Below are positions 1 to 52,424 of a DNA stretch of 64,000 bases, one piece after another. How positions within the stretch are numbered: the stretch's first letter is position 1; each line of letters begins with the position of its first letter. Location of the stretch: assembly GCA_905250025.1 (NCBI GenBank), contig CAJNOJ010000072.1, forward strand, positions 73,456-137,455, written 5' to 3'. The position numbers were made by a program, and so were the translations under genes. The notes beneath the pieces are model-generated. The model saw nothing but the letters and a program-made list of their open reading frames with translations. It made no database searches and was not told where the DNA came from. The DNA comes from Adineta ricciae. Taxonomy: Eukaryota; Rotifera; Eurotatoria; Adinetida; Adinetidae.

Positions 1-3000
1 TCGCGGACTCTGGGTTAGTAATGATTGTTCGCCAGTGGGTGGAATGGTAGCTGTGGCAAAGACGAAAAGATCATCAATAATACGTGTTTCGTATGGTTTC
101 TGTTGTGTTATAAATTGACGATGATCAATGAGAGTACGAAGAAACTATAATGAAGAAGGGTTGGTTTATACAAAGGAAAATTGCGAGTAAATGATTTACT
201 TCAGGTGCATTTTTGAATTTATCTAATTTGGCTGTTGCTGATGCTTGTAAATCATCAATGAATAAGCAGAACTTCTTGGCTAGTGGAGCTCCATATGTAA
301 AACCTTGTCGATGAACAACATTGGCTTCGATAATCTTTTGTAGATCGGCTGAATTAGTTGATTTGGAAAAATTCGTTCGAGTCGTTTGAAAATGAGTAGT
401 ATCTAAACACAAATTCATTCGATATTCTTATTAACAATGGATTTGATTTTCAAGACAAACCTAAACCACTGAGAAACGTATCGAGGAGGAATGTTTTACA
501 CGAGCCAGTTGTCCCGCTAAGTAAAATATTAACTTGCGCCATTGCAGCATATTTCAAAAAGTAATGTGCACGGGCTAAGTCAACTGTTTGCACAAGAACA
601 TTGCCGAATATGTCAATACGATCTTGAATATTTTCATTCAATTCTTCAACCCTAACGCAAAAAAAACGAAGGAAATCAAATGTGATTTGATTAAATGTTT
701 TGTAATGTTTACTTCGCAGTCCAAAGATCCCATTCACAAGCTTCGTCAACATAATAATCAAAGACTGATATTTCGCGATCATCATCTGGTAGAACAGCTG
801 TTACAGTCTTCAGCAAATCTGAATAACCTTTTTGTTCATCAGGATTAAGTATAATTTTCAAGACAAATGTCAAACAGAAAATAAAGAAGCGTTCGATGTG
901 AACATCAGTTGTAATATGCGTATTCTCAAGCAAGATTGCATCCAATAAGCGAAGTGCGATGGCAAATAAGCTCATTTCCGAATAATAAATTGACCTGATA
1001 AGAAAAAGATACGCTGTAAGTTTTCAGACAGACAGACATTCATTCATAATCGTTTTCATTACCTTGGACATTCTTCGCGAAGGTACGTTAGCACGGGATC
1101 CATCACTCGATCGAATGCTCCTCGAAGACACTAGAAAATCATACGAATAGTTTGTGGAGAAGATTTCTCTTGTTCTGAAACGAACTTCTAATTGACGTCG
1201 ATCTTTCAACCAAGTACCAGCAAGAACTTTCCAATCGATAACAGACTTATCGAAGTAGATAACTGTCTGGAAAGAAAGTCCGATGGTTTATAAACGAGAG
1301 AAAAGTTCGCCTTACTGAATTCGCAATAAATGCTGGCGACGCATCGGTTAACTCGGATGTTTCAAACATAAACTTCACTTGATCGAGAAGGTATAATTTA
1401 TCCCCAGTACGTATTTGTAATGATGCTTCTTTCTCCAGTATTGATGGAAGTAGATCTGCCCATGTTCGGCTGATACTTCCATCGAAACAAAACCAACTCT
1501 TGTGGCAATTCTATTCGAAATTAAACATCTCAAATTTGCTTTTTCCTCCTTGCAGTACTTTACTCGGTTTGCTTTGCGTAACATCGTAGTAAGAATACCA
1601 TCTTGCCATTCATTAGCTAAGGAATAGTAACCAAGAAGGATGCTTTCCGATTCAATAGCTAATGGATTGATTCTATCGACGAAAAACAACATGCTAGTAT
1701 GTCTTAATCAATATAAAACCGAGAAAATCTTTACCGATAAAGTTTATGGGTTTGCCCAGCTGATTCTTGTGTATAATTGGCTTCTTGACTGATTGAGCTT
1801 GACTTTTGTTGTTGATACGCGGATAGTAATTGTTGCTGTTGTTGTATTTGTGTTAGAACATCGATCATTAACATTGCTGCACTGGATTTGCCGCTATAGG
1901 GTGAGCCACATAGTATCATATCTAAAGAAACGATTGACTACAAGTTTCGATATGAAATTTCGACGAACTTTTCGAAACATTCGCTGCGTGAATCATTTGT
2001 GTGCATTTAGCTATCCAAAGTTTTTTAGGAATAAAATCATGATCTGGTGCTTTGTCACTGATAATTTTCTCTAAGATTGCGCCGGTAGTATTCATTGCGG
2101 CCAGTTTTGCTTCGTCACGTCCAACGAAGATATCGAGAACGAATACACGGAAAGTCTTCGCATGCTAAAAGACGCAAAAAATGTATCAAGACACGGTGGG
2201 AAACTTTCATACCTCGGGATCTAATCGAGCACCGATGACATCAATGAACAGTTGAGCTAGAAGGAACTGATCTGATTTAGTGCCGGTGTACGATGTTGTT
2301 TTGATTGTTAGGGATCGTCGAACTTCTACAAAATAAAATGGATTTGTTCGAAGCTGCACGAGTAAGAACTGATTCGTACCATCGATTTTATTTCCACCGG
2401 ATGTCATACTGTTTGGTCTTGAATTGCTACGCTTTTTCAAATTATTAACGTACTGAAGTAGATCGAGAAACGATGTTAAGGATATTATTGAACGTTGCTC
2501 AATTGGTCTAAACAGATTGAAATTGAATAAGAAGAAAGAATTCTGACTGAGAATATCTTACAAATATAAACGAATAGATTCGTAAAGAAGCGAGATTTTT
2601 TCTGCAATATTATTGGGATTCTTGAGGTTATGTTCGAAACATTTGATGCGGAAAATTTGGTCAAGTTCAGGTTTAACCAATGAAACAATACGAAATCGAG
2701 AACGTATTTCAGATGATAAAACCATACGATGGTCATTGTTAGGATCAAGAGCATATGGATTTCTGGTTGCCATGATTCCTATCGATGGTTGAATGGCGAT
2801 CTGTAAGATTGAAAAGATAGTACTTTTATTAGGTTGTTCGATGAAAACAAACCTCTCTGTTCTCAGAAATAATCGTAGCCGATGGATTATTTGCTCGAAG
2901 CGAATCACAGACAACTGTGACGTACTCCGCCAGTGACGATAAAACATTTGCAGATAGAGTATGAATATTATGAAAGACTCCCCAGCAACCATCCTGAAAT

Positions 3001-6000
3001 ATGCAGATGATTCTTGGTAAGAATTGATAAAAGTAAAAACACTTACCGTGGCCAATCCGGTGATAAACATAGCCACGGCAGATGGATCAACATGTTGAGA
3101 GCACTCGAAAGTAGCGATAAATCGACCAAGAAAACGAGCCAAACTCTAACAAAATAAAAATTTGACTTCTCGATCCCAACAAATTCCATCGCGAAAGTAC
3201 CGTTATTGTATACATTTTTCCAACTGCTGCTTTGCCTTGTAGAAGTACAGGTCGTTTAAATGACAGTGCAACCCATATGCCAAGAAAACACTTTTCTGTT
3301 GTCGGTGTGATACATAGCGTTTGATGAACACCATAGAATTCACTACCATAAGTAAAAACATCATCTAACACTTGCATTCGGACTGGTTCAGCAGGTGCAG
3401 GTGTTGCCACGGCACTACTATCGGCCGTTTTTCGTTCGGCTTTCTGAAATGGCGGCGATGGTGTTACTTGATACACGCGAAAACATCGTCGCCAATCGAA
3501 ATCCTTGGCAGATAAATCGCGGCGCCGTGAACAGACAACTTCGATATTATCACGTAAATAGGCAACGAACTATTTCATTAGAGAAGAATTTATGAACGAG
3601 AATATAAAATCAGACAAAACTTACGGATAGAACTCCTTCTAAACGTAGTTTATGTATAGGTAAAACGGGTTGTGTTGGCGTTTTCCATTGTGATCGTGTT
3701 AGTACAGACGACATCTTTTGAATTGATGTTAAGAATCGTTTCGATGCTGCTTGTAGACCCTTTCGATCAGTTTTCGAATCAATCATACCCGTCTCGATTT
3801 CACGTGTCCAAGCATATAATAAGCCTACTAATGCTACTTGACATGTGTACTACAAAGTCAAACGATCAAACAATTGATTTATTACTGAAAAGTCATACTT
3901 TCGAAACGAGCTCGTCGAACGGTAAACCACTATCGATGTCTTTGATACACGAAGCAACATCGTTTCGAATCGTATCTGCAACTGTTTCTTGTAATTGGGC
4001 AAGCCATTGTTCGACAGATTTTCGTAATGGAACCGTGTGCATCAATTGTAGACATTCGCCATCATCACTTAGAACTTGTTCGATATCATGTTGACTTAAA
4101 AGGGTGATATCGATATGAGAACGCGAATCGCCATTATTCGCTGCACTCTATACCAAAATAAACCGAACAGTTTTCTGGAAGAATAAATACAGATCTTACT
4201 CGTCGTCCACTTTCGATTTTTGGTTGGTCAAGAGTAGTCACAGCTATTTTCAAATCATCAATACCGTTAAACAACGAACGAAAATGTGGTTTTATGTAAC
4301 TAATTGTGTCTTGTCGACTTAATAGAGAAATCAACGTTCGATCGGTAAGAAAATAAAATCGAGGAAATAGTTGACGTTTTCGATCCAAATATAATGCAAT
4401 GGATTTATTACATATTTCTAATTCTTTTTGCATTTCTCTGAGAATACCTTTCTTTGGTGGCTCACTTAAACAACATTGTAAAACATTTCGAATTTCCGCT
4501 GATTGTCGTTGCGTTTTCAACCAAGTTTTATCGACACGCACGAATCGTTTCGATTCTAATGAAATATCTTTTCCTGCTGATGGATTATTAAATATGCTCT
4601 CAGCTCCTAACCACATATCTTGCACTTCAAGCCAAAGTTCAAGAATTTCCCCAATGGTCTTCAACTTATCCGACCAAGAGGCAACTTCTTCACGCATTGG
4701 TTCAATATATCGTGTTGTTAACATTTGTGCAAGCCTAACGTTCAGATAAAAAGTCGAATGAGAAGAAGAATATCAATCAAAATGGCTTACGTTTCTTCGC
4801 CGTCTTCTAAATGTTCGAGCAGATGTTCAACATAGCGTTTTTCCAATAGAACTGAACCGTAGTCTTTGTACGGTTCAAAACTAAGAATCTGTTCCGTCCA
4901 TTCTTCTTCAATACTTCGCATTTTCGTTTCTAATTCCAGTTCCTTTTGTGCCGAAAAGCACACTGCGGAGATCTCTTCTCGATATTTATCCAGTGGAATC
5001 TCTAATAGATCATTCAATTTGAATATACTCGATTCTAATTGAAATTGACATCCAGTTATCTGCATCACTTTCAACCAATGACGACTTCGAATTTCCCTTG
5101 CATTTAAAATGAATAAAATCGGAAATAACTCGAGATATTTCCTCAAATGTCCTTCCAAATCATAGTAAGCTGTCCACGTTCGATCCTGTAATTTTTCCGG
5201 AAGATTACAAAACTCCGTCCATAGGTCATTCAATTCGTTTTGACTTTGAATCAGATCCACTTCCGACCAAAGAGTATTACGGAATGTTGTATCGAATGCA
5301 ATGTATTTCTTGTACAAAATGTACAATTGATCGAGTAAAACCAGTTCCTAAAATAACCAAATTCTATGTTATTCATGGTTTTCAATTTCCACTACAACAA
5401 AATCGATAAAGATATGTATATATAGAAAGCAAAAGAGCGGATAATCATGCAGTCGATAATATCTTGACTCTCACCTGTTCAAAAATATCTCCTAAAAAAG
5501 ATTTGACATTCTCTTAGTTGTTACTGGTTAGTTATAAACCATTGAAAGAAGAATTCGTTCAAACAAAATAACAAAGAACGTACTTCGCCGGTTTTGTCTA
5601 ATTCAGAGAATTGTTTGGGTTGTAGACTAAAAAGCGTAGAAATCGAATTTAGTGTTTGTTTACGCCGATGCATGATTTTGTATTGTCCTTGAAAATCTCT
5701 CAGACGCTTCGCTGCTTCCAATGGTGCAATATCAGGAACATTGGGTCCTTCGACATCGAATGCATTTCGAAAGCGAATCACTTCCACGACGAAGGATTTC
5801 ACTTGTTTATCCAACTCTTGTTCTAATTGTTGACGACGTTCTTGTAATAATAGTTTTCGGACGCGATCAGCATTTAACATCAACGCCGACCATTTATCCC
5901 GTAATTGGGAACATTCATGCAATTCATCACGTGGAATCGGTACGTTATAAACTCGAGTTAATAGAGAATAAGTTGTTTCAATTGGTAAATAAATCGAACT

Positions 6001-9000
6001 AAAAGATTGAGAAGAATTTTTGAGAAGAAAATAAAAAACGAGCTCTCTTACTCAATTTTGTTTTCCATTTCGCTCAATTCTTCCAATAAAATCAATGCTT
6101 CATCCAACTGTTCCAATGTAGATACATTATCATTGAAGCGTTCTTGAATTTGTTGTCGATAGGCGACCACTTCATCCAATTGACTTTTCGCAAATCGATG
6201 CAATAATTTCGCATATTGACTTTTCCAACTGAAGATAAATGTTCGGAGAGAATTAATGATGGGAACTGTTTCAATGCAAACACAACCAATTTGAATTTCG
6301 TGTGGAAAGAAGTTCAAACGTTCTTCGATATGCACAAGACGTTCCAATTCACCTTGAAGATATTGCCGAGTTTCTCTCGTTGGAATGCCATTCGGATCAA
6401 TTACAATTGTATAGTCATCACCATCTTCGTCTTGTTGAGTGATCGTCTGGTATTGCAACTGTGAATCATCATGCCAAAGAAAATCGAATGTGCGAATATA
6501 TTGAACAGCATTTTGAGATATACGGGTGACATCGGCATCGATGGAAGATAAACGACTGACGATTTCGGCGACATATGGATCTGCTGTAATCGTCGATGCT
6601 AAGCGCTGTGATGTGTCATTGTCGAAAGCAGCCGATTCTAAACAGATATTTCGTGATTCAATGTTTTTGGATCGATGAAGCCGATTCACACTTACCACTG
6701 ACTCGTTTTTCGCAATTCATTATCGCGTATGCAACATCACGAATAGACTTCTGACAGAGAATTAGTTCTGGATCAATACTTATCTCTGGAATAGCATATT
6801 GCATTGTACAACCAATTCTAAACTTGATGTCAATACGAACACTGTTTACTTTTCGAAAGAAATTCATACCTAATTCGTTCGGTATCAATCTGATTGAATT
6901 GTTCATCGATGGATTGTCCATCGAATAATTCTCGAACTAACTTCTTTTGATCGGTCAGGTAACTTTCTTCGGCGACTGAAGCTAATCGGACAAAGACATG
7001 CAAACTACGTTCGACTATTTTTTGTACACAAGATATCATTTTATCTTGATAATAACGTATGAATGTCAGCATAGCTTCGTTGGGCGCCGTTGGTGTCTTA
7101 GTTCGTCGTGTTGATGATGTTGACGTTCGAGATTTTTGCGAGGTATTCAATTTCAATATTTCTTCGACTTCTTGAAATCGCTGTTGCACTTCGAAAAACT
7201 TCTTACCAATCAAATCTGCTTGTTCGTTTATATGTGCTGATACATTTTCGTAAAACTCCGCCGGTGACCATAATTTCGATCGAATATAATCCGGAGAGAA
7301 CAATAAATATGAAGAGTTGATCAAATCATTGTCAAGAATACTATCGATTTTCTCCGCAATTAAACCATTGAGATTCAGAATGAACGTTTCGAAACGGTCG
7401 AGTGCTCGATGAACTTTCGAAATATACACATCGATATTGAGAGTTGACCATTTGATTGTATGTAGACCGGGTTCGAATGCTCGATAGATTTGAGCTAACT
7501 GACTAGTGAATAACGGATAAAATGGCGGATATATTTGAGACTGTAAATCGTGAAATCGTTTAAGAAGATCTTCAAGTAAAGATTTGTATTGTTTGAACGT
7601 TTGTTCCTAAAATGACACACAATTTTCGAAAAATTTCCTCTCCTTCGATTTAAATTTCCTTTACCTTTTGTATACAAGCAATGGCTGCCTTTGGAATATC
7701 GACATCTAATCGTTTAAACCATTTTGCTTCATCGAATATTGAGAATAATTCCAAATTTGAGTTGATTCGAAGTTGTTTATTATTATCATCATCGTTTACT
7801 AAACACAATAAACTCGTATCCAAATGTTCTTTCCATATTTCAAGTTTTTCCTTCCATCGAGCTAATAACAATTGTTCGTATACAAGCAAAGCTTTTGCTG
7901 TACGATTGTAAAGTTTCGATATGACTGGAAAATTTCCAAGAGCAATGATATGACGATTGGTTTTAAATATATCCATAGATTTCTCCATTTTAGTTAGCAA
8001 TGTTCGCGACCAGGCGATTGCACCTGAAGAAAATCAATTGTGCATCTCGAATGATCAGCGAGAATGGAAGAGAAACTTACCAGCTATGGGTGGTGCATTG
8101 CGCGGTATGGGTGGATCATCCTTTTGAGCTTCGAAATTGGTTCGAATATCCAAGAGATCGTTTTCGAAATCTAGAGAAGATGTATTGGAAACTTCTTGAA
8201 AACGAATTAATTTAGTTACTTAAGAATAAGTTCACATAAGCATCGCGGAGTATCGGACGAAGATAGTTCCGTTCGCAGATCGGTTCGAAACAAGCGAGAA
8301 TCGCCAGACCTTCTTGTGTTCGTTTAGTTTTCGAAAATGTCACATTAATATAAGCACCAAGTAACTGTTCAAGTTCACGTGCACTTGCAGCAAACTGATT
8401 ATGTATCAAATCGAACCTTCGAAGAGTAGAAAACTCGTCTTTTTCTGCTGGTCAAAATCTGATCTATATACTTATTTGTTTCTTCATCCGGCGATGGTGT
8501 GGTATCGACCAGCAAGGCTTTGAGTTGTTCAACACCATTGGCAATGAAAACGTTCAAAGGTAAAGACTCTTCTTCATCTTCATAATGTTTCTCTTTGAAA
8601 GCGGATGGAACGAACGGTTTTTGAAGAGAACGAAAGAAGTCGAGCATACTTATTAAATCAAGATCAGCTTTGGACACCGTGGACAGAAGATAATCGTAAG
8701 GAGCAGCACCTGAATCACTCTCGCCATCGTCAATACCTTCATCAGATGCATTCTCGCCGCCATGATCATCTTTATGAGTCGAAGTATCTAAGAACGAATG
8801 CCATACATCAGATATCCATTTTTCATGTACTCATTTCTTACCAGTACGATTAGCAAGCTGTTCAGCATCGAGAATATCCTTTCGTTTTGGTTTCGGTAAT
8901 CGAACTGTTGTACGAATAAGTCTGAAATTCGGTAAAATTAACCAAAGAAACGAAGATTTATTGTTTTTACTGAGAAAATTGATTTAATGTAATTGTCATA

Positions 9001-10823
9001 TCAATCATCTGTTCGATCCGACGACAGAAATCTTCCAAATTTTGAAAGATCTTTTCATCTGCGGACATTAATACTCCACTCGCCCGTCGTATTTGCTGTC
9101 GTAATTGGCTCAGATCACGATTTTGAGAGCTCCTAAACGAACACACTATTCATTGTATCAAATTCATTAGATTTCCGATTGTACTCACGTTGTGCCACTG
9201 ACAGTGGATGATGCCGACGAAAACGCAGTTGTTGCCAACATTTGAGCACCGCCAAGTGCATCTCTTAACGCGTGAAAAGTTTCTCTGTATGATGCCAGTA
9301 ATAGAAGACAGTTTTTTAGACGTTGAAAAGTACTTTCGCCAGTTGTAGTGGTTTCTGATGGCACCGAACCTTTCGGAACTTCACGAAAACGTTTGATATC
9401 CTACAAATTTGATAATTTGACAAGAGCTTTTTTTCTTTGAGAAAAATTACTCGTTTATCTAAATGAAAGTTCTCTTTGATATCATCAATCGATCCTCCAG
9501 CTTGAATTTCATCAAAAAGCTTTGGCCAAAGTTGCGTTAAATCGTCATCATTGATATGATGTTTACAGATTTTCACCAATTGATTCGTTACTTTGGAGAA
9601 AATCAAGCCTAAATAACCTTGTCGAGCATAATATCTTGAAACGGATTCAACCGTTCGCATGGCATCACATAATGCCGGTAAAATATTCACAGCACAGTTT
9701 TGCGGATGAGCATCTTCAGTTAAGTTCTCTAAATAACGTCGAATTGATTCGAGAAATTTCGTTTTATCCCGACATTCATTTTGAGCTTCAGTTATTCTAA
9801 ACAAAAAACGCGTGTAATGAAATCATGCGATTGATGTTGATTCAATTTTTACGAAACATCGATTGCTTTCCATTTTCGAATGACTTTCGATTTCGATGTG
9901 ATCAAAGCACCAATGACTGCTTTGCATTCTTTCGATTTCAATTGTTCAAGTAGATTATTAATCAAACGTTGTTTACGCGTCCATCGTTCGATTTCACTCA
10001 ACGGGCCAAGTGCCGGATGACTTGAACTAAACGGAAACTCACATCGATGAAAGTACTCTTCCCAACACTAAGTCAACGTACTCGTCGCCGAAAATATCTT
10101 GAAGAACATTTTCGATTGTTGTTATCCATGATAGAACTAACGTTTCGCAATTGCGAATAACTGGACTGTCTGTGGTTGAGCGTGCAGTTTGTTTTAGCTG
10201 ATGCAATGTTTCGGCATCTGCACGTTTCAATAGCTTTCAAGAGAAGGAGAAACACTAAGTGTCTCTATTGTTACCTATATACTTACTAAGTTTTTGTCTT
10301 TGTGTAACGAATGACACGTCGCATTGATTCCATCGATTTGTTTTTCCATTTGAGTAACAATTGCGGTTTTAGTGGATGTTTGGTTATAACTGTCATGTGT
10401 ATTAGTTGATAATTCTTTTTTAAACAAAGGCAACAACGTTTGTGAGTATAATAATGATGTCATTTGCGTTGGATGTTTGATTTCTCCACAGTAAATATCT
10501 GATGCAGGCGAAATTGTTGCATCGGAACTCGTATCCGACCGAATAAAAAATAATAAAACTAAATTATCTAGCGGTTCATTGACGAGGACATATTCATCGA
10601 CGATATTGTTACAACAGATGATCTCTTTGGCATAGAGATTATCTCGTGTTGTGTAGAAAAATAGTTTATTCGAACCTTTGGCACAGAGAAAGCTGTTGAT
10701 TTTACTTAGCACGTCTGGTCGACGAAAGAATGTTTCAGTAAATGAAGCATCAGTCGAAGATGTCTTGTCAATGCAAAAGGTTTGCTCGACTTTCGAGGCA
10801 ATCCACCAGTGGCGTTCATCCAT
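1..10823 (-). CDS. Dynein heavy chain, divergent (partial; C-terminal part beyond window start)
   Basis: A multi-exon dynein heavy chain reads from the ATG at 10823 down to the window edge, with introns mostly 50-70 bases. The N-terminal tail covers about 10.8-6.0 kb. The linker (DHC_N2-like) covers about 5.9-3.8 kb and contains the family signatures LLEHLED (near 4.8 kb), WLEVQ and RFYFLTD. AAA1 lies at about 3.4-2.5 kb, AAA2 at 1.95-0.7 kb (P-loop GSPYSGKS near 1.9 kb; TDASPA motif near 1.35 kb) and AAA3 from 0.78 kb (P-loop GTTGSCKT at 515-492, FIDDLQ near 0.28 kb). The AAA1 P-loop reads GKAAVGKM instead of GPAGTGKT, and its Walker B reads CWGVFHN where CFDEF is expected, so the main motor ATPase site looks dead. 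AAA3 is also altered. The stalk and microtubule-binding domain lie outside the window. It may be a divergent axonemal class or a DNHD1-like non-motor heavy chain; I cannot assign the class. Confidence 0.9.
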
Positions 10824-11214: not shown

Positions 11215-12776
11215 ATGAGTTCCGAACGATCAATATCGCCCGAGCCTTTGCCGCAATCTCATTCCCGTTCGAGTTTAAATGCTACTGATGCAAAAGAAAG
11301 TAATGGACATTCGGCTCGACAATCATCAGCCGTACAAAGACGTCGCCGAGAGAATCCTAAGTATTGCCAAGCACACCCACGCCTGAACTGTTTTTCACTG
11401 TAGTTCTTTGCATTTAGTCGTACACCTTCGCCACGTTCGGCAACATCGCGTTCACGTAGTCGTAGTTCTATAGAAGGTTCCAAGTCACCACCACCCCGCA
11501 ATAATACGAATAACAACAATCATCGCTCTCCGTCACCTGCGCGTCATTCAAGTTCATCAACGAAACGACGCCGTCGAAAAGATAGCGATACTGATTCTGG
11601 TCGACATATTTGCGCCATTTGTTCAACTGATGTCGAAGCAGCCAAACGTCTCTTTGGTGTCTTAGACAATTGCGATCATGTTTTGTATGTTCACATATCA
11701 CAATTCACTATTCCAATGGTGACTTTCTCTCTTTCTAGTTGCTACGAATGTGTCGTATCGTGGAAACGTTCAAAGTATAGTAATGCTGAATCGGAAAGGT
11801 AAGAGATGACCGACAAAGAATGAAAGAATAATATTTGTGTTGTTGCTGTTGTAGCTGTCCAGTGTGTAAAATTCGTTCAGCATTTATAACTCCAAGTAAA
11901 CATTGGTTTGAGAACAAAGAAGATAAATATCGCATCGTGAAAAAACATAAGAACCACTTAAAGTAAGTACGAAAACAATCGTAGACGTATTTTGTTACAT
12001 CAGCGAGCTAAAGCTTTTGTTTTAATCAACGAAAAACTTAATCATTCATCCATCCTATTAGGAAACATATCGTCAGTTACGAACACACTCTCTGCATTCT
12101 ACTAGAGCTGTGCTTTTATTCATCGCACGAGTTCTTCCTCAGTTTAAGCCAGTTGTTCTTAACTTAAACAGACTTATTTATAACTTTACATGAATTATTT
12201 ACTTAAACGAGTATCACCGTCGCTTTGGCTGTTTGTTAGAAGTATTTTATATCCAGTTTTATTTGGCAGATGAAACAACCTATCTTATGTTAATACACAC
12301 ACACAGACACGAACTTTTTATAAACACATACATATACCAAGATATGTTTGCAATGTATGTATTGATGTGCTGTGTTTCCTATCTATACCAGCATCAGATG
12401 CTCAACATTTGTATTAAATGGAAAACTATTAAACGAACATATGTTCTTTCTCAAACTGATATCTGAATGAATATATTTGATAAACTTTTCTTTTCGTTTT
12501 CATCTCTCAAGGACATTACCTTGCCGGTATTATCTTCGTCATGGATTTTGCCGATACTCGGATCGATGTTTCTATGATCATCATGAAGCTGCCAAACAAT
12601 ACAAACAACAAAATCAACATTCAAGAGACCGAGACCATGATCGCAGTCGTGATCGCGATCGCGATCGTGAACGTAGTCGACATAGCCCACACAATGGCGG
12701 TCGATCTTATCATCGTTCACCATCGCCCTCATCAAGTCGATACTCGTCGTCACGTTACCGCGAACGAGCCTATTAA
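11215..12776 (+). CDS. Makorin-like RING / CCCH zinc finger protein
   Basis: Spliced exons 11215-11360, 11418-11684, 11739-11798, 11855-11962 and 12512-12776 give a 281-residue protein with intact frame. The first ~110 residues are Ser/Arg/Pro rich (SR-like). A RING finger follows (CAIC, CDHVFCYEC, CPVC), then the makorin-type stretch after the RING (PSKHWFENKEDKY) and one CCCH finger (CRYYLRHGFCRYSDRCFYDH). The C-terminus is an Arg/Asp repeat with SR pairs. Makorins are RING E3 ubiquitin ligases that bind RNA through CCCH fingers. This protein matches only the C-terminal half of a makorin: the N-terminal CCCH fingers and the makorin Cys-His motif are absent. The SR/RD tracts suggest association with splicing bodies (inference). 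The last intron is 549 bases, about ten times the local norm. Confidence 0.8.
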
Positions 12777-13158
12777 AAACTCCAATGAAGAATGATTTGA
12801 AAATCAAGAATAAACAGGAAAAAATGTTCCCTTTTTTTCTTTGTATAGTTGTTTGGTTGGACACACGGACAAACAAACAAACAATACTGATTCCTTTTTC
12901 TTTCTTTCTTTCTTTTTTGTTTCTGTTGAAAATTTATATCTATATCTACTACAGATTGTGTTGCTGTTGTTTATCTTGACTTCTACCTTTTCTTCCTCTT
13001 TTCATTTGTCAATTGTGTCTTTACTTTTCTTGTCCCGACAATCATTGCTTATTTCGAATCTCGTCGTTCGATAATAGCACATACGTGTACTAAGTGGAAG
13101 ATCAAAAAATATCTAGCCATTGTATTGTTTGTTTGTCTTTAAGATTAAAATTTTAGAT
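12777..13158. other. Intergenic, makorin-like to CCT4
   Basis: This short tandem gap is T-rich with long pyrimidine runs. It carries the makorin 3' UTR and, at its end, the acceptor-like sequence AAAATTTTAG two bases before the CCT4 ATG. No other gene is seen. Confidence 0.4.
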
Positions 13159-15428
13159 ATGACTACCAGTGATTCAACAAAATCATTCGCAGCAGCTGCC
13201 AGCGCAGGAGTTGCAAAAGGAACAGCAGGATCAGGTCAAACGAATGACGTAGGATTCAAAACACGACAACGACCAGATGCAATCCGAAATTCGAACATCG
13301 TTGCTGCAAAAGGTACGAAAATCTCGTGTGCTTTTCGATCTGTGAAAATCATCAATTCAATTTTAGCCGTTGCTGATGCTGTGCGAACAAGTTTAGGACC
13401 ACGTGGCATGGACAAAATGATTCAAACAGGTAATGGTGAAGTAACAATTACGAATGATGGTGCTACGATCCTTAAACAAATGTCGGTTATACATCCTGCT
13501 GCAAAAATGGTTTGTCATATGTCAGTTGAATTCTAACTGTTATTACGAATTTCTTCTAGCTGGTTGAATTATCTAAAGCACAAGATATCGAAGCAGGCGA
13601 TGGTACAACAACTGTTGTTGTTCTTGCTGGTAGCCTACTCGACGCCGCCAGTCGTCTCGTATCTAAAGGTAATTGGAAAGTTCGTGTTCAATTATTGATT
13701 GTAAGAAAAATTCTTGCTTGCAGGTCTCCATCCAACAGCTATTGCTGATGCATTTGAAAAAGCAGCTGACAAAGCAACGGAAATCCTCAAGGGTATTAGC
13801 ATACCTATAGAGCTTAGCGATAATGATTCGTTACAGCGAAGTGCATCAACATCGTTGAATTCTAAAGTATGTTCTGACAAAACAATTTTCTTTTCGGGTA
13901 CATTTGCATATTATATTAGGTTGTCTCACAACATACTCATCTTCTCGCTCCTATTGCTGTCCAAGCTGTTCTGAAAGTCATCAATCCAGCTGTTGACAAC
14001 AATGTCGATCTTCGTGATATTCGTATCGTTAAGAAATTAGGGTAAGAAGTCACTTGCAAGATGGCATCTTCTATTTAAATATTTCTTTTACTTTCGTAGT
14101 GGTACTATTGAAGATACTGAACTGGTTGAAGGTCTCGTTCTCGATCAAAAAACTATTGGTTTCGGTGCACCAACACGTATTGAAAAAGCTAAAATTGCTC
14201 TGATTCAATTTTGCATTTCACCGCCAAAAACTGATGTGAGTGGGCTTTTCATTAACAAAGTACTCATTTTAACTTTTACTGACTCGTACAGATGGAAAAT
14301 ACCGTCATTATCAGTGATCATGCTCAAATGGATCGCGTGATCAAAGAAGAACGACAATATATTCTGAACATAATTAAACAGATCAAAAAGACCAACTGCA
14401 ATGTCTTGTTAATTCAAAAATCCATCTTGCGTGATGCAATTAGCGATTTGGCTATCCATTATCTAGCTAAAATGAAGATCTTAATCGTCAAAGACGTCGA
14501 GCGTGAAGACGTGCCATTCATTGCAAAGGTAATCTTTCGAAGAGAGTCGCAATAGTAGTCTGACGGAATATTTTTAGACTCTCGGTTGTAAACCAATTGC
14601 AAGTTTAGATCATTTCCAACAGGATATGTTAGGTACAGCTGATCTTGTTGAAGAAATCACCGCTGGTTCCGATAAAATCGTTAAGGTAAGTGATGACTTG
14701 TCATGCGTCAAGAAGTTTAATACTCGAAATGTCAACCTAATCTAAAAAGATAAGAATAACCTCTAAGCATCATGCAGTATCTGACTGGAGTGTCTATTTG
14801 AATGGTTTTCTATTAGATTACGGGTGTTGCCCATCCAGGTCATACAGTATCAATTTTATTACGTGGTTCAAATAAATTGGTACTTGAAGAAGCTGATCGC
14901 TCTATTCATGATGCTCTTTGCGTGATTCGTTGTCTTGTAAAAGAACGGTTAGTTGATGAGATTACTACTTGACTTCTCTATGTCTTTTGTTCTCATGATT
15001 TAGCGCGTTAATTGCCGGTGGTGCCGCACCTGAGATAGAATTGTCTGTTCGCTTAGCAGAATATGCCCAAAGTCTATCAGGTGTTCACCAATATTGCATT
15101 CGAGCGTTTGCCGAAGCTCTTGAGGTTATTCCGTATACGTTAGCGGAAAATGCTGGATTAAATCCGATTGCCACCGTTACAGAATTAAGAAATCGCCATG
15201 CACAAAACGATACAAATGCTGGTATTAATGTTCGAAAGGTAACTATCGATAGAAAATGTATTGTCGAAACTGAGTGTACAAAAACCATTTGTTGTTTTTT
15301 TTCAGGGTCTTATCTCGAATATTCTCGAAGAAAACGTTGTTCAGCCATTATTGGTTTCTGTCAGCGCTATTCGTTTAGCTACCGAAACAGTTCGATCAAT
15401 TTTAAAGATTGACGATATAGTAAGATAA
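13159..15428 (+). CDS. CCT4: T-complex protein 1 subunit delta (CCT4)
   Basis: Eleven exons (13159-13312, 13367-13509, 13560-13668, 13724-13866, 13920-14041, 14100-14235, 14292-14528, 14578-14685, 14817-14947, 15004-15238, 15306-15428) join to a 546-residue protein, close to the ~540 residues usual for CCT4. It is one of eight subunits of the cytosolic TRiC/CCT chaperonin that folds actin and tubulin. Group II chaperonin motifs are clear: [12 protein letters not shown] near the N-terminus, the nucleotide loop [30 protein letters not shown], and [10 protein letters not shown] near the C-terminus. The Ala/Gly-rich N-terminal extension ([17 protein letters not shown]) is typical of the delta subunit. 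The start is the first ATG after an acceptor-like TTTTAG at 13156, consistent with trans-splicing. An AATAAA poly(A) signal lies near 15.72 kb. Confidence 0.97.
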
Positions 15429-16136
15429 AGTCTCTTGAATATTTCATTTCCAAAAATTTGCTTTTAGATCGAAACAATGTAAACGGGAAAGATCAACATC
15501 AAAAAAAAAAGAAAACATTGATTCTCAACATAATTGTTTGCATGTGTGGTTTGTTCTGTAGGAAATCTTTTTCTCTTTTTTTGTTGTTGTTGTTTGTTAT
15601 TGTTATTATCATTATACCGTTTTTTAAACACCCGTGCTTATCGAAACCAGACACTAAGTGAAAACAAACTGAATGATTGCGATATGAACAAGACCAGTTT
15701 TTCTTTTTTTTTCTTTTATAACAATAAACATTTGCACTGCATATTCATTTTTCTCTCATCCTTTGATTATTCTTTCGAATAACCCTAAAGAGGCAGTCAT
15801 GTCTTCGTTGTTCTTCTACTCTTTAACAAACTAGAATCATGGAAAAGATATCGTAACGGAAATAATTAGAACTTCAAGAGTACTTATGGTTACCTTCACG
15901 TCGATGAGTATAAGTTGTTCTTGAAAATGAAAATATTTTGCGTGTTCGTATAGAGATCTTTCGGACCGTCTGCCCTTCTCCTTGTCATAATTAAACTAAG
16001 TCGATTGACAGTCTACCAAAGAGAATCTTTTTACGTCACCGGGCATATATTTTTTTAATACCGTACAAAAGTATAACATTTATATTACAAAACAAAGTAA
16101 TGACGATAAATATTTATTGTCTTTTCATCATAAGTT
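15429..16136. other. Convergent 3' intergenic region, CCT4 / GPCR
   Basis: This region holds the 3' ends of two convergent genes. A plus-strand AATAAA occurs near 15.72 kb for CCT4, and a minus-strand AATAAA near 16.11 kb for the receptor. T-rich simple sequence occurs at about 15.57-15.62 kb. No coding sequence is supported. Confidence 0.45.
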
Positions 16137-26236: not shown

Positions 26237-27100
26237 TTATTTAAGTTTTTTACGTAGAATGTTCAGATATTTTTGATAGTGGGATAGTTTACGTCGATGG
26301 AGATGATCTGTTTGTTTTAATATGTCGATAGCCTGTGTGACATGCTCGAAAGCATCTTCGAAACGCTTTAAACCTTCTAATGCTATTGCCATGTTGAAGT
26401 GTCTTGTAGCTAACAAGAGATTATTCAATGGAAGAAGATCTTCTTGAATATGCAATGCTTTTGTTTGACAGGAAAGAGCTTTCGAATAGTCTCGCATTAG
26501 ACAAAACACACTGCCGATTTTGTTATATGTATAGACTAATAATGCCCGTTGTTGAGGAAGATTCTGCTTGATGATTTCTAGAGATCGTTCGAAGTATTCG
26601 ATGGCTGATGGATACTCTCGTAATGAACGGTATGTTGAACCAAGATTTGAATAAGTTGCCACTAGTGAGAAATCATCGGGTGAAATATTTTGTAATTGGA
26701 TTTGTAGAGCATCATGAAAATGTTTCAATGCTTCTTTGTAATTCTTCTGAGCTTTCAAGATCAGACCAATCGCATTGTAACGATTAGCAATTCGTAGTTG
26801 ATTCGCTTCACGATCACGAAGATCGAGATCCAATCCACGTCGGTTATATTTCAATGCTCGATTGTAATCAGCACGCTGACTGAAAAGATTTCCAAGATGT
26901 TCATATGTTAAATAAAGAAGATCGTCATCCGTTGGTCGATAATACAGATTGATCTCGATTGACTGTTGGAAAAATGATATTGCCTGATTGCTATTACCAG
27001 CAAGACATCCTAATTGGTGGTAAACACTGGCGAGTTCTTCTAATTCTTCATTTTCTGTTTTACGAAGTAATGCTTCATAATTTGAGCTATCCGATGACAT
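26237..27100 (-). CDS. TPR repeat protein (287 aa, intronless), kinesin-light-chain-like repeats
   Basis: A single exon of 287 codons runs from the ATG at 27100. It is almost entirely tetratricopeptide repeats of the 42-residue kinesin-light-chain/Nephrocystin-3 type. At least five units are visible, for example LTYEHLGNLFSQRADYNRAL, YNAIGLILKAQKNYKEALKH, YSNLGSTYRSLREYPSAIEY and YNKIGSVFCLMRDYSKALSC. TPRs are protein-binding superhelices with no enzymatic role. The repeats resemble those after the ART domain in the neighbouring gene, but no ART domain precedes them here. The protein could be a domain-loss paralogue of that family or an independent TPR protein. The basic C-terminus ends in KKLK. 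No signal peptide is seen. Confidence 0.8.
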   Translation of the reverse strand: MSSDSSNYEALLRKTENEELEELASVYHQLGCLAGNSNQAISFFQQSIEINLYYRPTDDDLLYLTYEHLGNLFSQRADYNRALKYNRRGLDLDLRDREANQLRIANRYNAIGLILKAQKNYKEALKHFHDALQIQLQNISPDDFSLVATYSNLGSTYRSLREYPSAIEYFERSLEIIKQNLPQQRALLVYTYNKIGSVFCLMRDYSKALSCQTKALHIQEDLLPLNNLLLATRHFNMAIALEGLKRFEDAFEHVTQAIDILKQTDHLHRRKLSHYQKYLNILRKKLK

Positions 27101-27497
27101 CGCTCCAGTTTAGTTCTTTTTCACTCGTATACTTGAATCTATTGGTTAATTTTTGTAGTAACGAAAGAAAATAAATGTTTGTCGTCATTACAACGCGCAT
27201 AACACAGGAAAATGGCGTTGTTAGAACACAAAAAAATTATTTCAATCAGGCACACATTGAGTATCAATGGAAAGAGAACGTTGACGACAGCTGCTTTTCA
27301 AGTGACTGTTGTTTTAATAATACAAGACAACTATTAACACATCGGATATGTGAAGAAGCGACCTCTTGCTGAAGAATCGCGAATAGAATTAGTAATAAAT
27401 ACTAGTGGACGTTTTCGGACAATTATGCAACAGATACTGAGTCATCCGAGAGAAGAATTTACGATATTCTTTTATTCTTCATTCATTCGAACATCGG
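27101..27497. promoter_or_regulatory. Divergent intergenic region, TPR gene / CHAP amidase gene
   Basis: These 397 bases lie between divergently transcribed intronless genes and must hold both promoters. No clear TATA box or operator is recognisable, and the short plus-strand open frame at 27175-27372 has no supporting feature. Confidence 0.35.
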
Positions 27498-28124
27498 ATG
27501 TCACGTGAAATCGTCAAATTCGTTCCATTCAACGAAATTGAAGGAACAGCTTCTTCAAACGTTCATGCATATTCGAACAAACGCACAAGCGGTTGCCGTG
27601 GCGGTCGGCACTATCACTACGGAATCTTCACCGGCTATCAATGGCAATGTGTAGAGTTTGCTCGTCGATGGTTATTAATTCGTAAGACGTGTACATTTCG
27701 AGATATACCCTGCGCATGCAATATCTGGGCTGATGTGCCTCATGTCGAACGAGTTACCGATGGTCGATGTTTTCAACTACGTCCTGTTCCGAACGGCTCT
27801 TTCGAACCACCAAAGAAGGATTCATTACTGATTTATAAGCGCAATGCCAAAAATCCCTATGGTCACGTCGCTATTATAACTGATGTGACGTCAGATCATG
27901 TTTATATTGCTGAACAGAACAATTTATACTATTATTGGCCGGGTGATTATGCTCGACGGGAGCCATTGAGATGTGAAAATGGACGTTATTATATCGACGA
28001 TGAAGATCCAATCTATGGTTGGATGGAAATCGAGAATAACGATGAATTGCAGCCCTTTGACGAAGCGAACATCGCCAATATTCTCGAAAACTATCTAGAG
28101 CATCAATCAGGTGATCATTTTTAA
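27498..28124 (+). CDS. CHAP-domain amidase, glutathionylspermidine amidase-like (208 aa, intronless)
   Basis: A single exon encodes 208 residues with a CHAP (NlpC/P60-type cysteine amidase, peptidase family C51) domain. The arrangement matches the N-terminal amidase half of bacterial glutathionylspermidine synthetase/amidase and trypanothione synthetase: GYQWQCVEFARRWLL with the nucleophile Cys, the FPNGS-like PVPNGSFEPP, YGHVAIITDV with the catalytic His, and IAEQNN with the third polar residue. That enzyme class hydrolyses glutathionylspermidine or trypanothione back to glutathione and polyamine. Here the C-terminal ATP-grasp synthetase domain is absent, so this is a stand-alone amidase. 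Animals normally lack it. No introns and the accessory neighbourhood agree with horizontal acquisition, well known in bdelloids. No signal peptide is present, so it is probably cytosolic. The substrate in this organism is inferred, not shown. Confidence 0.85.
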   Translation: MSREIVKFVPFNEIEGTASSNVHAYSNKRTSGCRGGRHYHYGIFTGYQWQCVEFARRWLLIRKTCTFRDIPCACNIWADVPHVERVTDGRCFQLRPVPNGSFEPPKKDSLLIYKRNAKNPYGHVAIITDVTSDHVYIAEQNNLYYYWPGDYARREPLRCENGRYYIDDEDPIYGWMEIENNDELQPFDEANIANILENYLEHQSGDHF

Positions 28125-28327
28125 GATGTAAAATTCGATTCTTGTTGTGTATCGAATGGCTGTTGAAATTTTACTGTTAAATTTATATACGAATCTATTT
28201 GATTAAATGACAAACTGCTAGTGCATCTATTTTTATCATATTTATTAAATTCCAATACATATCAGATGAGTTTTAATGCTGATACATTTTTCGTTAAACA
28301 GAACAAAGGTCTCTTGCTTCGATCGGA

Positions 28328-28958
28328 CTAAAATTGAGCATGGCTAGCTAAAATTTGTCGAACAACTCGCGGTAATTCAACAACAAGGGTTGGCCCATCG
28401 ATTTGTTTACGAACGACTTTAACAAGTAAATCATAGATTGGATTTAAATCACCAGCTCGAAGTTTGTTTTCGAATAATAATGTGGCTAATTGAATACCTT
28501 CGTCTTCGAGTGCTTTCAATTCTTCTTCCTGTTCGCGAGTGATATTTTCTTCGGCGAATTTCACTGTCTTTTGAATAGCAGTAATGAAATCAATTTTCGA
28601 ATAGGCTTGGAAGGCTTGTAATTCTTTTAAACATCGGAGAAGAAATTCATGACGAACCATACCGAATTGAAGAGCAGTGGAATCGATTTGATCACGAATA
28701 TTCACTGGAAGAACATTGACGATTTGATTGATAAGAAGCTATACAAACAGAACAGAAACGCTCCGATTATTTTCAACAATTATATAAACATACTTGTTGC
28801 AAGAAGTTTCGTGACTGAAACAAACAAAAGGGAAAAGTTCAGATCTATTTTAATAGATTAAAACATACTTCGACAGCGTCATTCGCTTGATAGGCACCAG
28901 TGCAGCCAATGGCGAGAACGGTAAAGAGAGCAATGAGAGCAACTGTTGAAGACTTCAT
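28328..28958 (-). CDS. Small secreted helical protein, function unknown (166 aa)
   Basis: Exons 28958-28869 and 28738-28328 join in frame to 166 residues. The start at 28958 gives a clear signal peptide (MKSSTVALIALFTVLAIGC, cleavage probably after TGA). The mature part is predicted helical, rich in Leu, Glu and Gln, with one Cys, and contains an acidic run (REQEEELKALEDEG) and a basic C-terminal half (VVRKQIDGP). I do not recognise a family. The 130-base intron contains a second possible acceptor, so an alternative exon start is possible. A TATA-like TTAAATA lies ~40-50 bases upstream of the ATG. It shares its 5' region with the Ly6-like gene. Confidence 0.7.
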
Positions 28959-29700
28959 GATTATAATAATCGACGTATCGAAATACAAGATGAGATATTT
29001 AAGTGCACTAAAAACCGATGCGAAATTTTGCCAAATGTTGTTTGCGTTAATCAGATGATACTACATTACCATCAAATATCGATTTTATGTTCTAAACTAT
29101 TTCATGCGGTCGATATGATGAGAACGAATGTCAGGTGATTATCGAGATTTATATTGAGAAATCTCAACACCCACGTTGACGAAAATATCATGAAGATAAC
29201 GAAAGAAAAAATAGGTTTAATCGGAGTAGAGAGAGAGAGAGAGATTATGTCGTTTTGCACGGAATCATCAACATTATTCGTACGATGACTTTCAAAAGTC
29301 GGTTTGTTCAAGTTAATCAATTCTTATTACATCATCGACATATACTTCGGAGAAGAAGCCGATGAGTAAGGTCGAAAATATGCAAATTAATACGATGAAG
29401 TAATTATCATGACAACAGTACATTGAGATTTGATCGAATGGGTAGTTTTTTGTTTATCATCAAACATTGACACGGCCCACATGTGCCTCCTCGTCATTTT
29501 CGTTTGAAAATAACGTTGAATATTTATTAAAATGAGCAATTTATTTTATTTTTCTTCTTAATATTGAATTAAGCAACCTTCCAGACAAATATTTTGTAAG
29601 AAACAACGAGGTGGATAGCAAAGATGGTGTTCGAGTGGATGAAATTTAAATAGCGAAGTTAAAATCACAAACTTAGTTACTTTTATCGATTGTCATCACC
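28959..29700. promoter_or_regulatory. Divergent intergenic region, secreted protein / Ly6-like gene
   Basis: This 742-base region separates two divergent small secreted-protein genes. It contains an (AG)8 microsatellite at 29228-29244 and AT-rich sequence. A TATA-like TTTAAATA occurs near 29.65 kb upstream of the Ly6-like start. No coding exon is supported. Confidence 0.4.
29228..29244. repeat. (AG)8 microsatellite
   Basis: An uninterrupted dinucleotide AG run lies in the intergenic region upstream of the Ly6-like gene. Confidence 0.9.
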
Positions 29701-30127
29701 ATGAAAGCATTACTTGTATGTTCGCTTTTCATTGCCCGTAAGTTTCAAAACTCCGAGATGATCTCTTAGATAAGTTGGTTTCTTCGTCTAGTTCTTGGAT
29801 GTAGTTACGCAGCATTTCAGTGCTACAAATGTAACAATTGTGGTACATCATGGGATCCTAGTAAAGCCACTTTAGTTTTGACCGAAGGTGGAACAAATTA
29901 TTGCGTTGTAAGTTTTTCAATGACAGACTTGACAGAATCTGATGTTTCATATTTAGAAACGAGTTTCGGGTACCACAGTAAGCAAAGATTATAGTTCCAC
30001 GTGTTCACAAGGTAATGGTGTGTACTGCTGCCAAGATAATTTGTGTAATTCATCGAATTCAAATTCTTCGATGAACTTTGCTATGATCGTTCTGTTTTCT
30101 ATTATTGGTTTGGCCTTCAAATATTGA
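29701..30127 (+). CDS. Ly6/uPAR (three-finger) GPI-anchored protein, 107 aa
   Basis: Exons 29701-29737, 29792-29907 and 29957-30127 splice in frame to 107 residues. A signal peptide (MKALLVCSLFIALLGCSYA) precedes a small cysteine-rich domain starting FQCYKCNNCG. The domain ends with CCQDNLCN, the hallmark CCxxDLCN motif of Ly6/uPAR/CD59 three-finger proteins. A hydrophobic C-terminal tail (MIVLFSIIGLAF) follows a Ser/Asn-rich linker, as expected for a GPI-attachment signal. The protein should sit on the outer cell surface. Ly6 proteins modulate receptors or ion channels, but the partner here is unknown. The small exons hide it from a simple open-frame search. All three domain hallmarks agree, so the model is strong despite its size. 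Confidence 0.88.
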
Positions 30128-30261
30128 GAAGAATGTGTTTATGTTTGGAACTACGAAGCGGTGATTGCTTATTATTTAGTCCACATCTATTTCTTTTACT
30201 TCTCAATGTATTTTGTTTATTTAAAAGAAATATATAATCTTTAAATACCATTTTTAGTAAA

Positions 30262-31206
30262 CTAAGTCATCGATGCAACTGTTCCTTCACTCAGTGGTTC
30301 ACTATGGCAGTGGCGTATACTGTAAAGTATATGAAGCAATTGTTTTCTATAGACGCGACTAGAGAGAATGTAGGTAAAGAAAGGTGTGACGAAAGAAATT
30401 CCGAAAAGAAGTTGATTAATGCTAGAAATGAAGGAAAAGAGAAGTGTGGTGCGAACAGAGTTAGGTAAAGTAGCGATCAGGAAAGTAACAGATGTTGGAA
30501 GAGTCAAACCGATGTGTGTGCCGACTTGGAAAAAGAGCATGCGGGCAAGCTGACGTTCCGTGCGATGGAAACGTGACACCAACATTGGAGAAACTCGTGA
30601 ACGTTTCGTATGCCTGATTGTAATTAAACCAAAAGATACCATTAAACACGGTGGAACGACAGCAAAGAGGATAACTTGTGTAATGATGTATACTTGATAA
30701 TAGGTGGTTACCGCTTGTGACATGCACAAATATCTAGTGCTCGCATTGATATCAGTCATGAAGACAACATTGATAAAGAGCAAAGCGAAGGCAATGATGA
30801 CTATGCATATCATGCCATGAGCCATTCGAATACTGGTAAAGTTACGTATTTTGGCATGCGATGAACTTGCACAGCAACGGTCTAGTGAAGCTAACACAAT
30901 GATATAAGGTGAAAGAAAGCAACATAAAGTGTTGATAAACGTGTAAGCTTTGCAAAAGGCAATAGAATATCTAGACACGTCGATTTGATAACCATTTTTC
31001 AATAAACTGATAATACAGACAACGCTCGAATAAAATAGATTATTTCCCGATAGAGCAAGAAAGTATCGGGAACATGCATGATAGAATAAACTGTGCCGAG
31101 TAAGTACGACTGCGTTAAGTGAATTACCTATAATACCAACGACGATAATGATGGGTAAGACAGCTTGCTGAAGTGTAGTACTAGTTTGCATTAATGGGCT
31201 AGACAT
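30262..31206 (-). CDS. Rhodopsin-like orphan GPCR, single exon (314 aa)
   Basis: A single 314-codon exon from the ATG at 31206 shows seven hydrophobic helices. Helix 1 has GIIGNSLNAVVL, and the end of helix 3 reads LASLDRCCAS, a DRY variant in which Tyr is Cys. The helix 7 region (FGISFVTPFFTYILSS) lacks the NPxxY Asn-Pro pair in canonical form. The N-terminal extracellular segment is short and has no signal peptide. The last ~35 residues form a short cytoplasmic tail. Such short, intronless, divergent class A receptors form large lineage-specific families in bdelloids (family knowledge). The ligand is not inferable. No NxS/T-rich ectodomain is present. Confidence 0.82.
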   Translation of the reverse strand: MSSPLMQTSTTLQQAVLPIIIVVGIIGNSLNAVVLTRHSLFYHACSRYFLALSGNNLFYSSVVCIISLLKNGYQIDVSRYSIAFCKAYTFINTLCCFLSPYIIVLASLDRCCASSSHAKIRNFTSIRMAHGMICIVIIAFALLFINVVFMTDINASTRYLCMSQAVTTYYQVYIITQVILFAVVPPCLMVSFGLITIRHTKRSRVSPMLVSRFHRTERQLARMLFFQVGTHIGLTLPTSVTFLIATLPNSVRTTLLFSFISSINQLLFGISFVTPFFTYILSSRVYRKQLLHILYSIRHCHSEPLSEGTVASMT

Positions 31207-32193
31207 CGCACAGATTAGTTGGTGTTCTGGCTCGTTTTGAAAAAGAGACCGCTGCTTTTATAGATCTCGGCAGTTCGACGACTAGGACAGCATGGCTTGT
31301 AACATTTGAAACCAAATCGGATGTTGTTAACTTCTAGTCATGATTTCATTTCACACTGTGTTTCAGACATTGTTACATTGCATGACATATCAATGAGGTT
31401 CGACTCACAGCTGTTTAGGTTTTAGCCAGTTGAATCTCGTCATTTGTCGCATAATCATTCTCGATACTAACGTGCTTTAATCAAGGTTCTACATATTTAA
31501 CAAAGAAAAATTTTCAAATTTCCCTTGAATACAGGAACTTGCGCAGTACGAATGTCAAGAAAAAATATAATTTGTATGTCTCCCTTAACATAGGCTACAG
31601 ATGGGGTCCGTAAAAAAGTTCTCTCAGTAGTTCTGTCGCTACGTCATTATTAAACTACTCACATACGCAATTAAAATAATTCCCGCCGGTCTTGGCTGTC
31701 TTATGCTACTCATTCTTTTCCGAATTGCTATGAAAACTATTCAACATCAAAGATCGATTGTCAACATCGGTTGAGAAGTACTATGGTTGTGCATATTGAA
31801 ACATGTACGAATGCCGAATATAACAATTCTATATACCGCATCACGGTATTCTTTATTAAATCAGATTTTATCACATATAGAAAAAGCTTACTCATGCTCA
31901 TCAATGTCCATTTCCCGCTGCATGTCCCATTATCTCATTAGTTTAATTTTATTAAGCTCATTGTTAGTGCAAAACGCAGGCTATATCTGTGCCACCGTGA
32001 CTCCGCTACATCAGGCCTTTTTAATTTGAAAAAAGCCAGTATAATTCGTGAGCTTGAATGAGCACATTTTGACTTTCACTTATACACAAGTATTTAAACC
32101 CTACTGGAGTCTCACGTAAAATATGGATCGTCCTTCTGATTGGTTAACTGCACCGATGACGAAATTATCGTAAATCTTCAAGTTCCAATTGAC
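31207..32193. promoter_or_regulatory. Divergent intergenic region, GPCR / MEMO-family gene
   Basis: Nearly 1 kb separates two divergent genes. An 80-codon plus-strand open frame at 31787-32029 has no recognisable feature. An acceptor-like TCTTCAAG lies 11 bases before the MEMO start at 32194. A short ATG-initiated frame at 32124 stops after about sixteen codons and could act as a uORF. Confidence 0.35.

Positions 32194-41976: not shown

Positions 41977-49409
<7,433 letters not shown>

Positions 49410-49883: not shown

Positions 49884-52424
<2,541 letters not shown>

Follow-up and report, generated by a model that had tools for sequence, protein, structure and literature searches.

In dyneins, hydrolysis at AAA1 powers the stroke and AAA3 and AAA4 tune it, and in outer arms a gamma and a beta heavy chain form a pair. 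To our knowledge, no dynein is considered able to work without hydrolysis at AAA1. Among kinesins, on the other hand, pseudo-motors are known (KIF26, Vik1/Cik1), and the non-catalytic Vik1 partners the kinesin Kar3. Here, a dynein heavy chain gene devoid of the catalytic motifs of AAA1 is described in the bdelloid rotifer Adineta ricciae, where it occupies the reverse strand of a 64,000-nucleotide window (the whole stretch of DNA that was analysed: positions 73456-137455 of contig CAJNOJ010000072.1, hereafter C72) and extends past its low end. The gene is interpreted, with good though not full confidence, as an outer-arm gamma-class pseudo-motor, nearly full-length and most likely employed in cilia as a static arm, a cross-bridge or a regulatory partner. 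As in the kinesin pseudo-motors, the motor fold would be kept and catalysis lost, although these belong to an unrelated ATPase family.

The nearest precedent appears to be DNHD1 (the articles given by PMC number are cited from excerpts). Like the window gene, it is an animal heavy chain suspected of being no ordinary motor: the excerpt of one study presents it as a dynein-related orphan that may be what remains of a duplicated gene or may be turning into a pseudogene (PMC8754002), and in another Dnah5 is called a paralogue of Dnhd1 (PMC9749982). According to the latter excerpt, loss of dnhd1 in zebrafish leaves ciliary motion unimpaired, and attention is drawn there to a reduction in the number and length of cilia (PMC9749982), a phenotype that suits a non-motor or structural role. 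In men, DNHD1 variants have been linked to abnormal sperm flagella (PMC9916431), whereas males have never been observed in a bdelloid species, as stated in the excerpt of PMC5916493. Among the literature matches listed, whose coverage leaves out most subscription papers, there was no description of an outer-arm chain with a dead AAA1.

The P-loop of AAA1 lies at the end of an exon placed by the gene model at 3201..3569 (reverse strand, as for all features of the gene; positions without a contig name are those of the window). The minus-strand translation reads LLQGKAAVGKM at 3245-3213, with the Walker A motif GKAAVGKM (3213..3236) in place of the expected GPAGTGKT: the Lys is kept and the Mg-binding Thr is replaced by Met. 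The Walker B region, DGCWGVFHN (2967..2993; DGCWGVFHNI at 2993-2964), is found where WGCFDE is expected and falls within one exon, with VFHN at the position of CFDE, His in place of Asp and Asn in place of Glu. Between the two motifs the gene model places two introns, a 55-nucleotide one 3' of the P-loop (3146..3200, GTACTT...TTAG) and a second one at 2994..3046. When the former is spliced out, the AAA1 segment aligns without gaps across the P-loop with the dyneins of the PDB (phmmer, best E 1.8e-27; E 1.9e-27 for human DNAH5), GKAAVGKMYTITSLARFLGRF being aligned under the matching segment of human DNAH5 and WGVFHNIH under WGCFDEFN. The altered P-loop, the VFHN that replaces CFDE and the two intervening introns had all been put forward in a sequence-only reading of the window made by a model, and reverse-strand translation and gene prediction bear them out.

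As a control, the genome (130 Mb) was searched with the AAA_6 family profile, which returned 139 exon-wise matches. This search gives scores to the best candidates only, and more divergent dynein genes may thus be missed (two loci described below, on contigs C100 and C29, may be examples). GPAGTGKT and CFDE, in spliced or raw translation, were present in 30 of the 30 other dynein AAA1 loci, a set that leaves aside the giant AAA protein of locus L040, which we take to be midasin. The exceptions were the two copies of the window gene, both assigned to C72, and two copies of a second chain on contig C118. The combination expected of a motile dynein, GxxxxGK[T/S] together with DE in Walker B, occurs in all 30 loci and is missing from the window gene. 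Both copies of the latter lack both motifs, and their P-loop and Walker B codons differ by a single synonymous GGA/GGG change. A general fault of assembly or reading was rejected, because the other 30 loci read normally.

The exon model is home-made and combines codon usage, splice sites and an intron-length prior. The possible splicings between LLQG and LGRF were enumerated, admitting GT-AG, GC-AG and AT-AC introns that are in-frame, stop-free and at least 36 nucleotides long. None of the seven introns obtained restores a GxxxxGK[T/S] loop, and a splice rescue of the P-loop was rejected on this ground. A weak GC-AG splicing (donor 3230) does set a Ser after GK, but it deletes six residues together with the initial Gly of the loop, and the product, LLQGKSLARF, is therefore no P-loop. 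A non-canonical AT-AG intron, spotted by hand outside the enumeration, would yield GKAAVGKS and is very unlikely to be real. A first ab initio model, devoid of the intron-length term, spliced VGKM out; the model with this term and the gap-free alignment both favour GKAAVGKMYTIT, and the 55 nucleotides of the intron fall within the commonest sizes of the first model (~49-58 nucleotides).

The predicted gene is stop-free and comprises 65 exons encoding 5,273 amino acids, from an ATG at 10823 (C72:84278) to C72:64585. Its 5' part, at 1..10823, accounts for 34 exons and ~2,945 of the ~5,270 amino acids; the last of these exons crosses the edge of the window, and the earlier statement that the gene is open over 10 kb holds for the spliced gene. 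Pfam families were found in the order of a dynein heavy chain: DHC_N1 (4.3e-90), DHC_N2 (2.9e-80) and the DYH2-5-8_CC coiled coil (2.4e-6) in the tail and linker, AAA_6 (1.7e-28), AAA_7 (1.4e-34), AAA_8 (4.6e-36) and AAA_9 (1.3e-24) in the motor, AAA_lid_11 (1.1e-15) and Dynein_C (1e-27) in the C-terminal part. DHC_N1, DHC_N2 and all the families from AAA_6 to Dynein_C exceed the Pfam cut-offs, and Dynein_heavy (28.9 bits, cut-off 30.5) stays below. On this basis the product appears to be a nearly complete heavy chain provided with tail, linker, ring and C-terminal domain, and a stalk seems recognizable by eye. In AAA2, a P-loop (GSPYSGKS, 1884..1907) was read by hand; it is taken as part of the protein because the motif is present in an open frame, around which the automatic model splices. 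AAA3 shows a P-loop, GTTGSCKT (492..515; GEQGTAKT in human DNAH5), without the usual Gly before the Lys, a feature shared by DNAH5 and by L028, a locus of another class, and a Walker B, CLFIDD (251..268), in which both acids are kept, IDD being found in human DNAH5 too. In AAA4 both motifs are lost (GTVGSHLSK vs GVGGSGKQS, LLTYKHL vs IFTDNEI).

As for the class of this chain, a tail query of 1,658 amino acids matched 81 PDB sequences, the best 60 of which were examined. The best nine of the 81 make up an outer-arm set, and the next sequence outside this set scores 331 bits. Chlamydomonas gamma comes first (8.6e-162, 544 bits), followed by DNAH5 (1.5e-147, 497 bits), two protist chains labelled 'putative' (496 and 481 bits), a 4,730-amino acid chain labelled CFAP57 that we take to be DNAH8 (479 bits) and four outer-arm alpha chain sequences, presumably from Tetrahymena (430 bits); the classes of the unlabelled or 'putative' chains are our assignment. 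DNAH5 is also the best PDB match of the AAA2-AAA4 region (1.9e-88), and in a linker tree of 14 rows the window gene joins L003, the DNAH5/8-like gene of the genome, with a support of 93/91. Tail and linker are thus closest to DNAH5/8 and Chlamydomonas gamma, and the tail is of the outer-arm gamma class. The likeness extends to the DYH2-5-8 coiled coil, the order of the ring and the C-terminal domain; unlike gamma-class chains, the window gene is devoid of Walker A and B in AAA1 and in AAA4 and has a long motor branch.

Divergence between the two copies was estimated after dropping codons in poor local alignment (<60% identity in 21-codon windows). Over 3,683 codons there are 365 synonymous vs 114 nonsynonymous changes, with a synonymous divergence (dS) of 0.166, a nonsynonymous divergence (dN) of 0.0133 and a dN/dS ratio (omega) of 0.080; the counts are 20 vs 6 in AAA1 alone (omega 0.083) and 22 vs 1 in AAA4 alone. 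In ten further dynein pairs of similar age (dS 0.097-0.161), omega values are 0.008-0.165; from this range the L043/L044 pair (dS 1.69) was set aside, and the pairs from C118 and from a neighbouring helicase (the latter with dS 0.149 and omega 0.108) are reported apart. The highest omega of the pairs, 0.165, is that of two dynein loci on the same contig (L049 and L050, C35:374 kb and 451 kb; dS 0.128), calculated on 440 codons only. A pseudogene would be expected to have a broken frame or an omega near 1; in the window gene the predicted frame is open and omega is low, and the gene is therefore considered to be maintained by purifying selection. This agrees with the suggestion of the sequence-only reading that the locus encodes a maintained non-motor dynein, since the motifs are lost in both copies, none of the enumerated splicings rescues the P-loop and the predicted frame is intact; its guess of a structural heavy chain may also prove apt.

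The two copies probably represent different haplotypes of this bdelloid, since their dS resembles the mean homologue synonymous divergence (KS) of 0.135 given for Adineta ricciae in the excerpt of PMC5916493. On C72, copy 2 starts at 44,864, a point corresponding to the end, at 78,586, of the stretch of copy 1 that matches it (21 kb, 94.4%), and its 5' part is found on contig C165, from ~26834 to 31767 (DHC_N1 matches; 94.9% identity up to ~31767). A true tandem duplication is not favoured, because dS is like that of the other pairs and because the 5' part of copy 2 lies on C165. At a larger scale, C72:13095-44864 and 46500-78586 form a head-to-tail repeat with an offset of ~33.7 kb and an edge inside the dynein gene, and on C165 (L054, 29500-31915) a 154-base inverted piece, 100% identical, follows ~31767. 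Probably, two haplotypes have been joined, or were broken at the same spot.

A second dynein heavy chain with a dead AAA1 is encoded on C118, at 121400-135299 (L053, L038), with a copy ~73 kb away at 198800-208799 (L039). In its AAA1, LGAAGGTLILNQNSDY takes the place of the P-loop and LFNHL is found as Walker B. The AAA2 P-loop reads GQSQSGKS (GQCQSGKS in the other copy), AAA3 keeps its P-loop GDRGVGKS and has IDN as Walker B, and AAA4 is without P-loop. The two copies show an omega of 0.077, and this chain is under purifying selection. Its tail matched 38 PDB sequences, of which the top nine are beta-class chains (Chlamydomonas beta with 192 bits, outer-arm beta chains that we take to be from Tetrahymena, DNAH17, DNAH9 and two 'putative' chains), and the next one scores 98 bits; the best match of the motor is DNAH17 (3.3e-58). 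By its tail, the C118 chain is thus of the outer-arm beta class (DNAH9/17). The linker tree gives no supported position for it and shows it next to the cytoplasmic L002, a placement flagged for long branches; a grouping with the beta-class L034 is not rejected (approximately unbiased test, p-AU 0.451). The C118 chain resembles the window gene in its dead AAA1 and AAA4, the kept P-loop of AAA3, the low omega and the DHC_N1 tail, and differs from it in having a beta-class tail, an AAA1 P-loop that is gone outright rather than substituted and IDN rather than IDD in AAA3.

Different explanations of the window gene have to be considered. It is hardly credible that the loss of the motifs is only apparent and due to misassembly or to incorrect splice prediction: there is indeed a suspicious assembly join at the dynein locus, and the gene model is home-made, but two copies separated by a dS of 0.166 agree on the motifs, the enumerated splicings all fail to restore the P-loop and VFHN lies within an exon. 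Equally slight is the chance that the gene is decaying into a pseudogene; its motor domain does evolve fast, but copy 1 has 65 predicted exons and no stop, and an omega that falls within the range of the ten like-age dynein pairs, together with the open frame, argues strongly against decay. The window gene might instead be the bdelloid orthologue of the 'ghost gene' DNHD1, with a loss of motifs that may be old in a known family. This is somewhat unlikely; the published view of DNHD1 as a possible relic, its reported kinship with Dnah5 and the zebrafish phenotype would be in its favour, but the excerpt of one report places a patient mutation in the 'hydrolytic ATP binding site' of DNHD1 (PMC9916431). 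Moreover, another very divergent dynein (C100:265262-271998) could equally be DNHD1. No statement on the AAA1 motifs of DNHD1 was found among the literature matches listed, and no chain of this name was among the PDB matches listed for the window-gene and C118 queries.

The window gene could also provide, by analogy with Vik1, a regulatory head that acts as a brake or spacer beside a live beta-class chain in a working outer arm. Loci that look beta-class by motif reading and have an intact AAA1 are present (L034, L046, L051, L052), and it is in its gamma-class tail that the window gene is well conserved; however, a dead beta-class chain that has likewise lost AAA1 and AAA4 is the more economical partner, and we consider a live one unlikely. 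Several points weigh against the interpretation of the window gene as a maintained gamma-class pseudo-motor. No Pfam match to the microtubule-binding domain was obtained in the stalk pieces searched, the AAA2 P-loop is missing from the automatic gene model, and the choice of the 55-nucleotide intron leans on the length prior, the model without it having picked another splice. The omega of 0.080 derives from one copy pair in one genome. Furthermore, the support of the linker join is under the starred threshold, and in the AAA2-AAA4 motor tree (13 rows) the window gene sits on an end branch of 4.37 without a supported place, its motor being too divergent. In this tree both dead chains are on very long branches and without supported place; the end branches of the conventional rows range from 0 to 1.65, and the stem of the pair L036/L037 measures 2.48.

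Other dynein loci of the genome show unusual features. At C100:265262-271998, weak matches to DHC_N2 and AAA_8 were obtained, and AAA_6, DHC_N1, AAA_7 and Dynein_C were not among the matches listed; this is a very divergent dynein, possibly an orthologue of DNHD1 or a third dead chain. At C29:123977-137327, DHC_N1, AAA_7, AAA_8 and Dynein_C were found, DHC_N2 and AAA_6 were not among the matches listed and only ~3 kb separates the tail from AAA3; it could be either a dynein without linker and AAA1 or a gap due to assembly or search. On C25, AAA_7, AAA_8 and Dynein_C occur twice with near-equal scores (476.6-481.9 kb and 484.6-498 kb), perhaps because the 3' portion of a DNAH5/8-like gene has been duplicated locally. 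The predicted neighbours of the dynein gene in the window look like ordinary animal genes. They are presumably a CCT delta chaperonin-like gene, fused by the gene model to a zinc-finger protein (11215-15482, forward strand), a ubiquilin-like gene (39380-41656, reverse strand), a PRPF8-like gene (41977-49409, reverse strand) and a gene for a CARM1-type methyltransferase-like protein (49884-51902, forward strand).

For the gamma-class pseudo-motor proposed here, we infer a loss of activity, a ciliary location, a structural role and pairing with a beta-class chain. Deprived of the Thr/Ser of Walker A, of the Asp/Glu of Walker B and of AAA4, a chain would have no AAA1 hydrolysis cycle and no power stroke; its conserved tail would still allow assembly and docking in cilia, and once built in, the chain may serve as static arm, cross-bridge or regulatory partner. 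That the tail is the best conserved part and that the AAA3 P-loop is kept suggest a static or regulatory arm. Since one gamma-class and one beta-class chain show a like loss of AAA1 and AAA4, and since gamma and beta are the usual outer-arm partners, it is tempting to imagine that the dead gamma chain of the window and the dead beta chain of C118 form a heterodimer, that is, a catalytically silent outer arm that would serve in the cilia of an animal without sperm, either as a fixed arm or by cross-bridging passively; this is a tentative proposal, more open to doubt than the pseudo-motor nature of the window gene itself. If true, it would mean that a dynein scaffold is worth keeping for its own sake, with two large chains held under strong constraint after the loss of their AAA1 motifs. 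DNHD1, the animal chain discussed as a possible non-motor, has so far been treated as a relic. In a ciliated animal without known males, sperm function would be no reason for retaining such genes, and the tasks of an outer arm other than pulling, such as docking, spacing or passive cross-bridging, would become testable.

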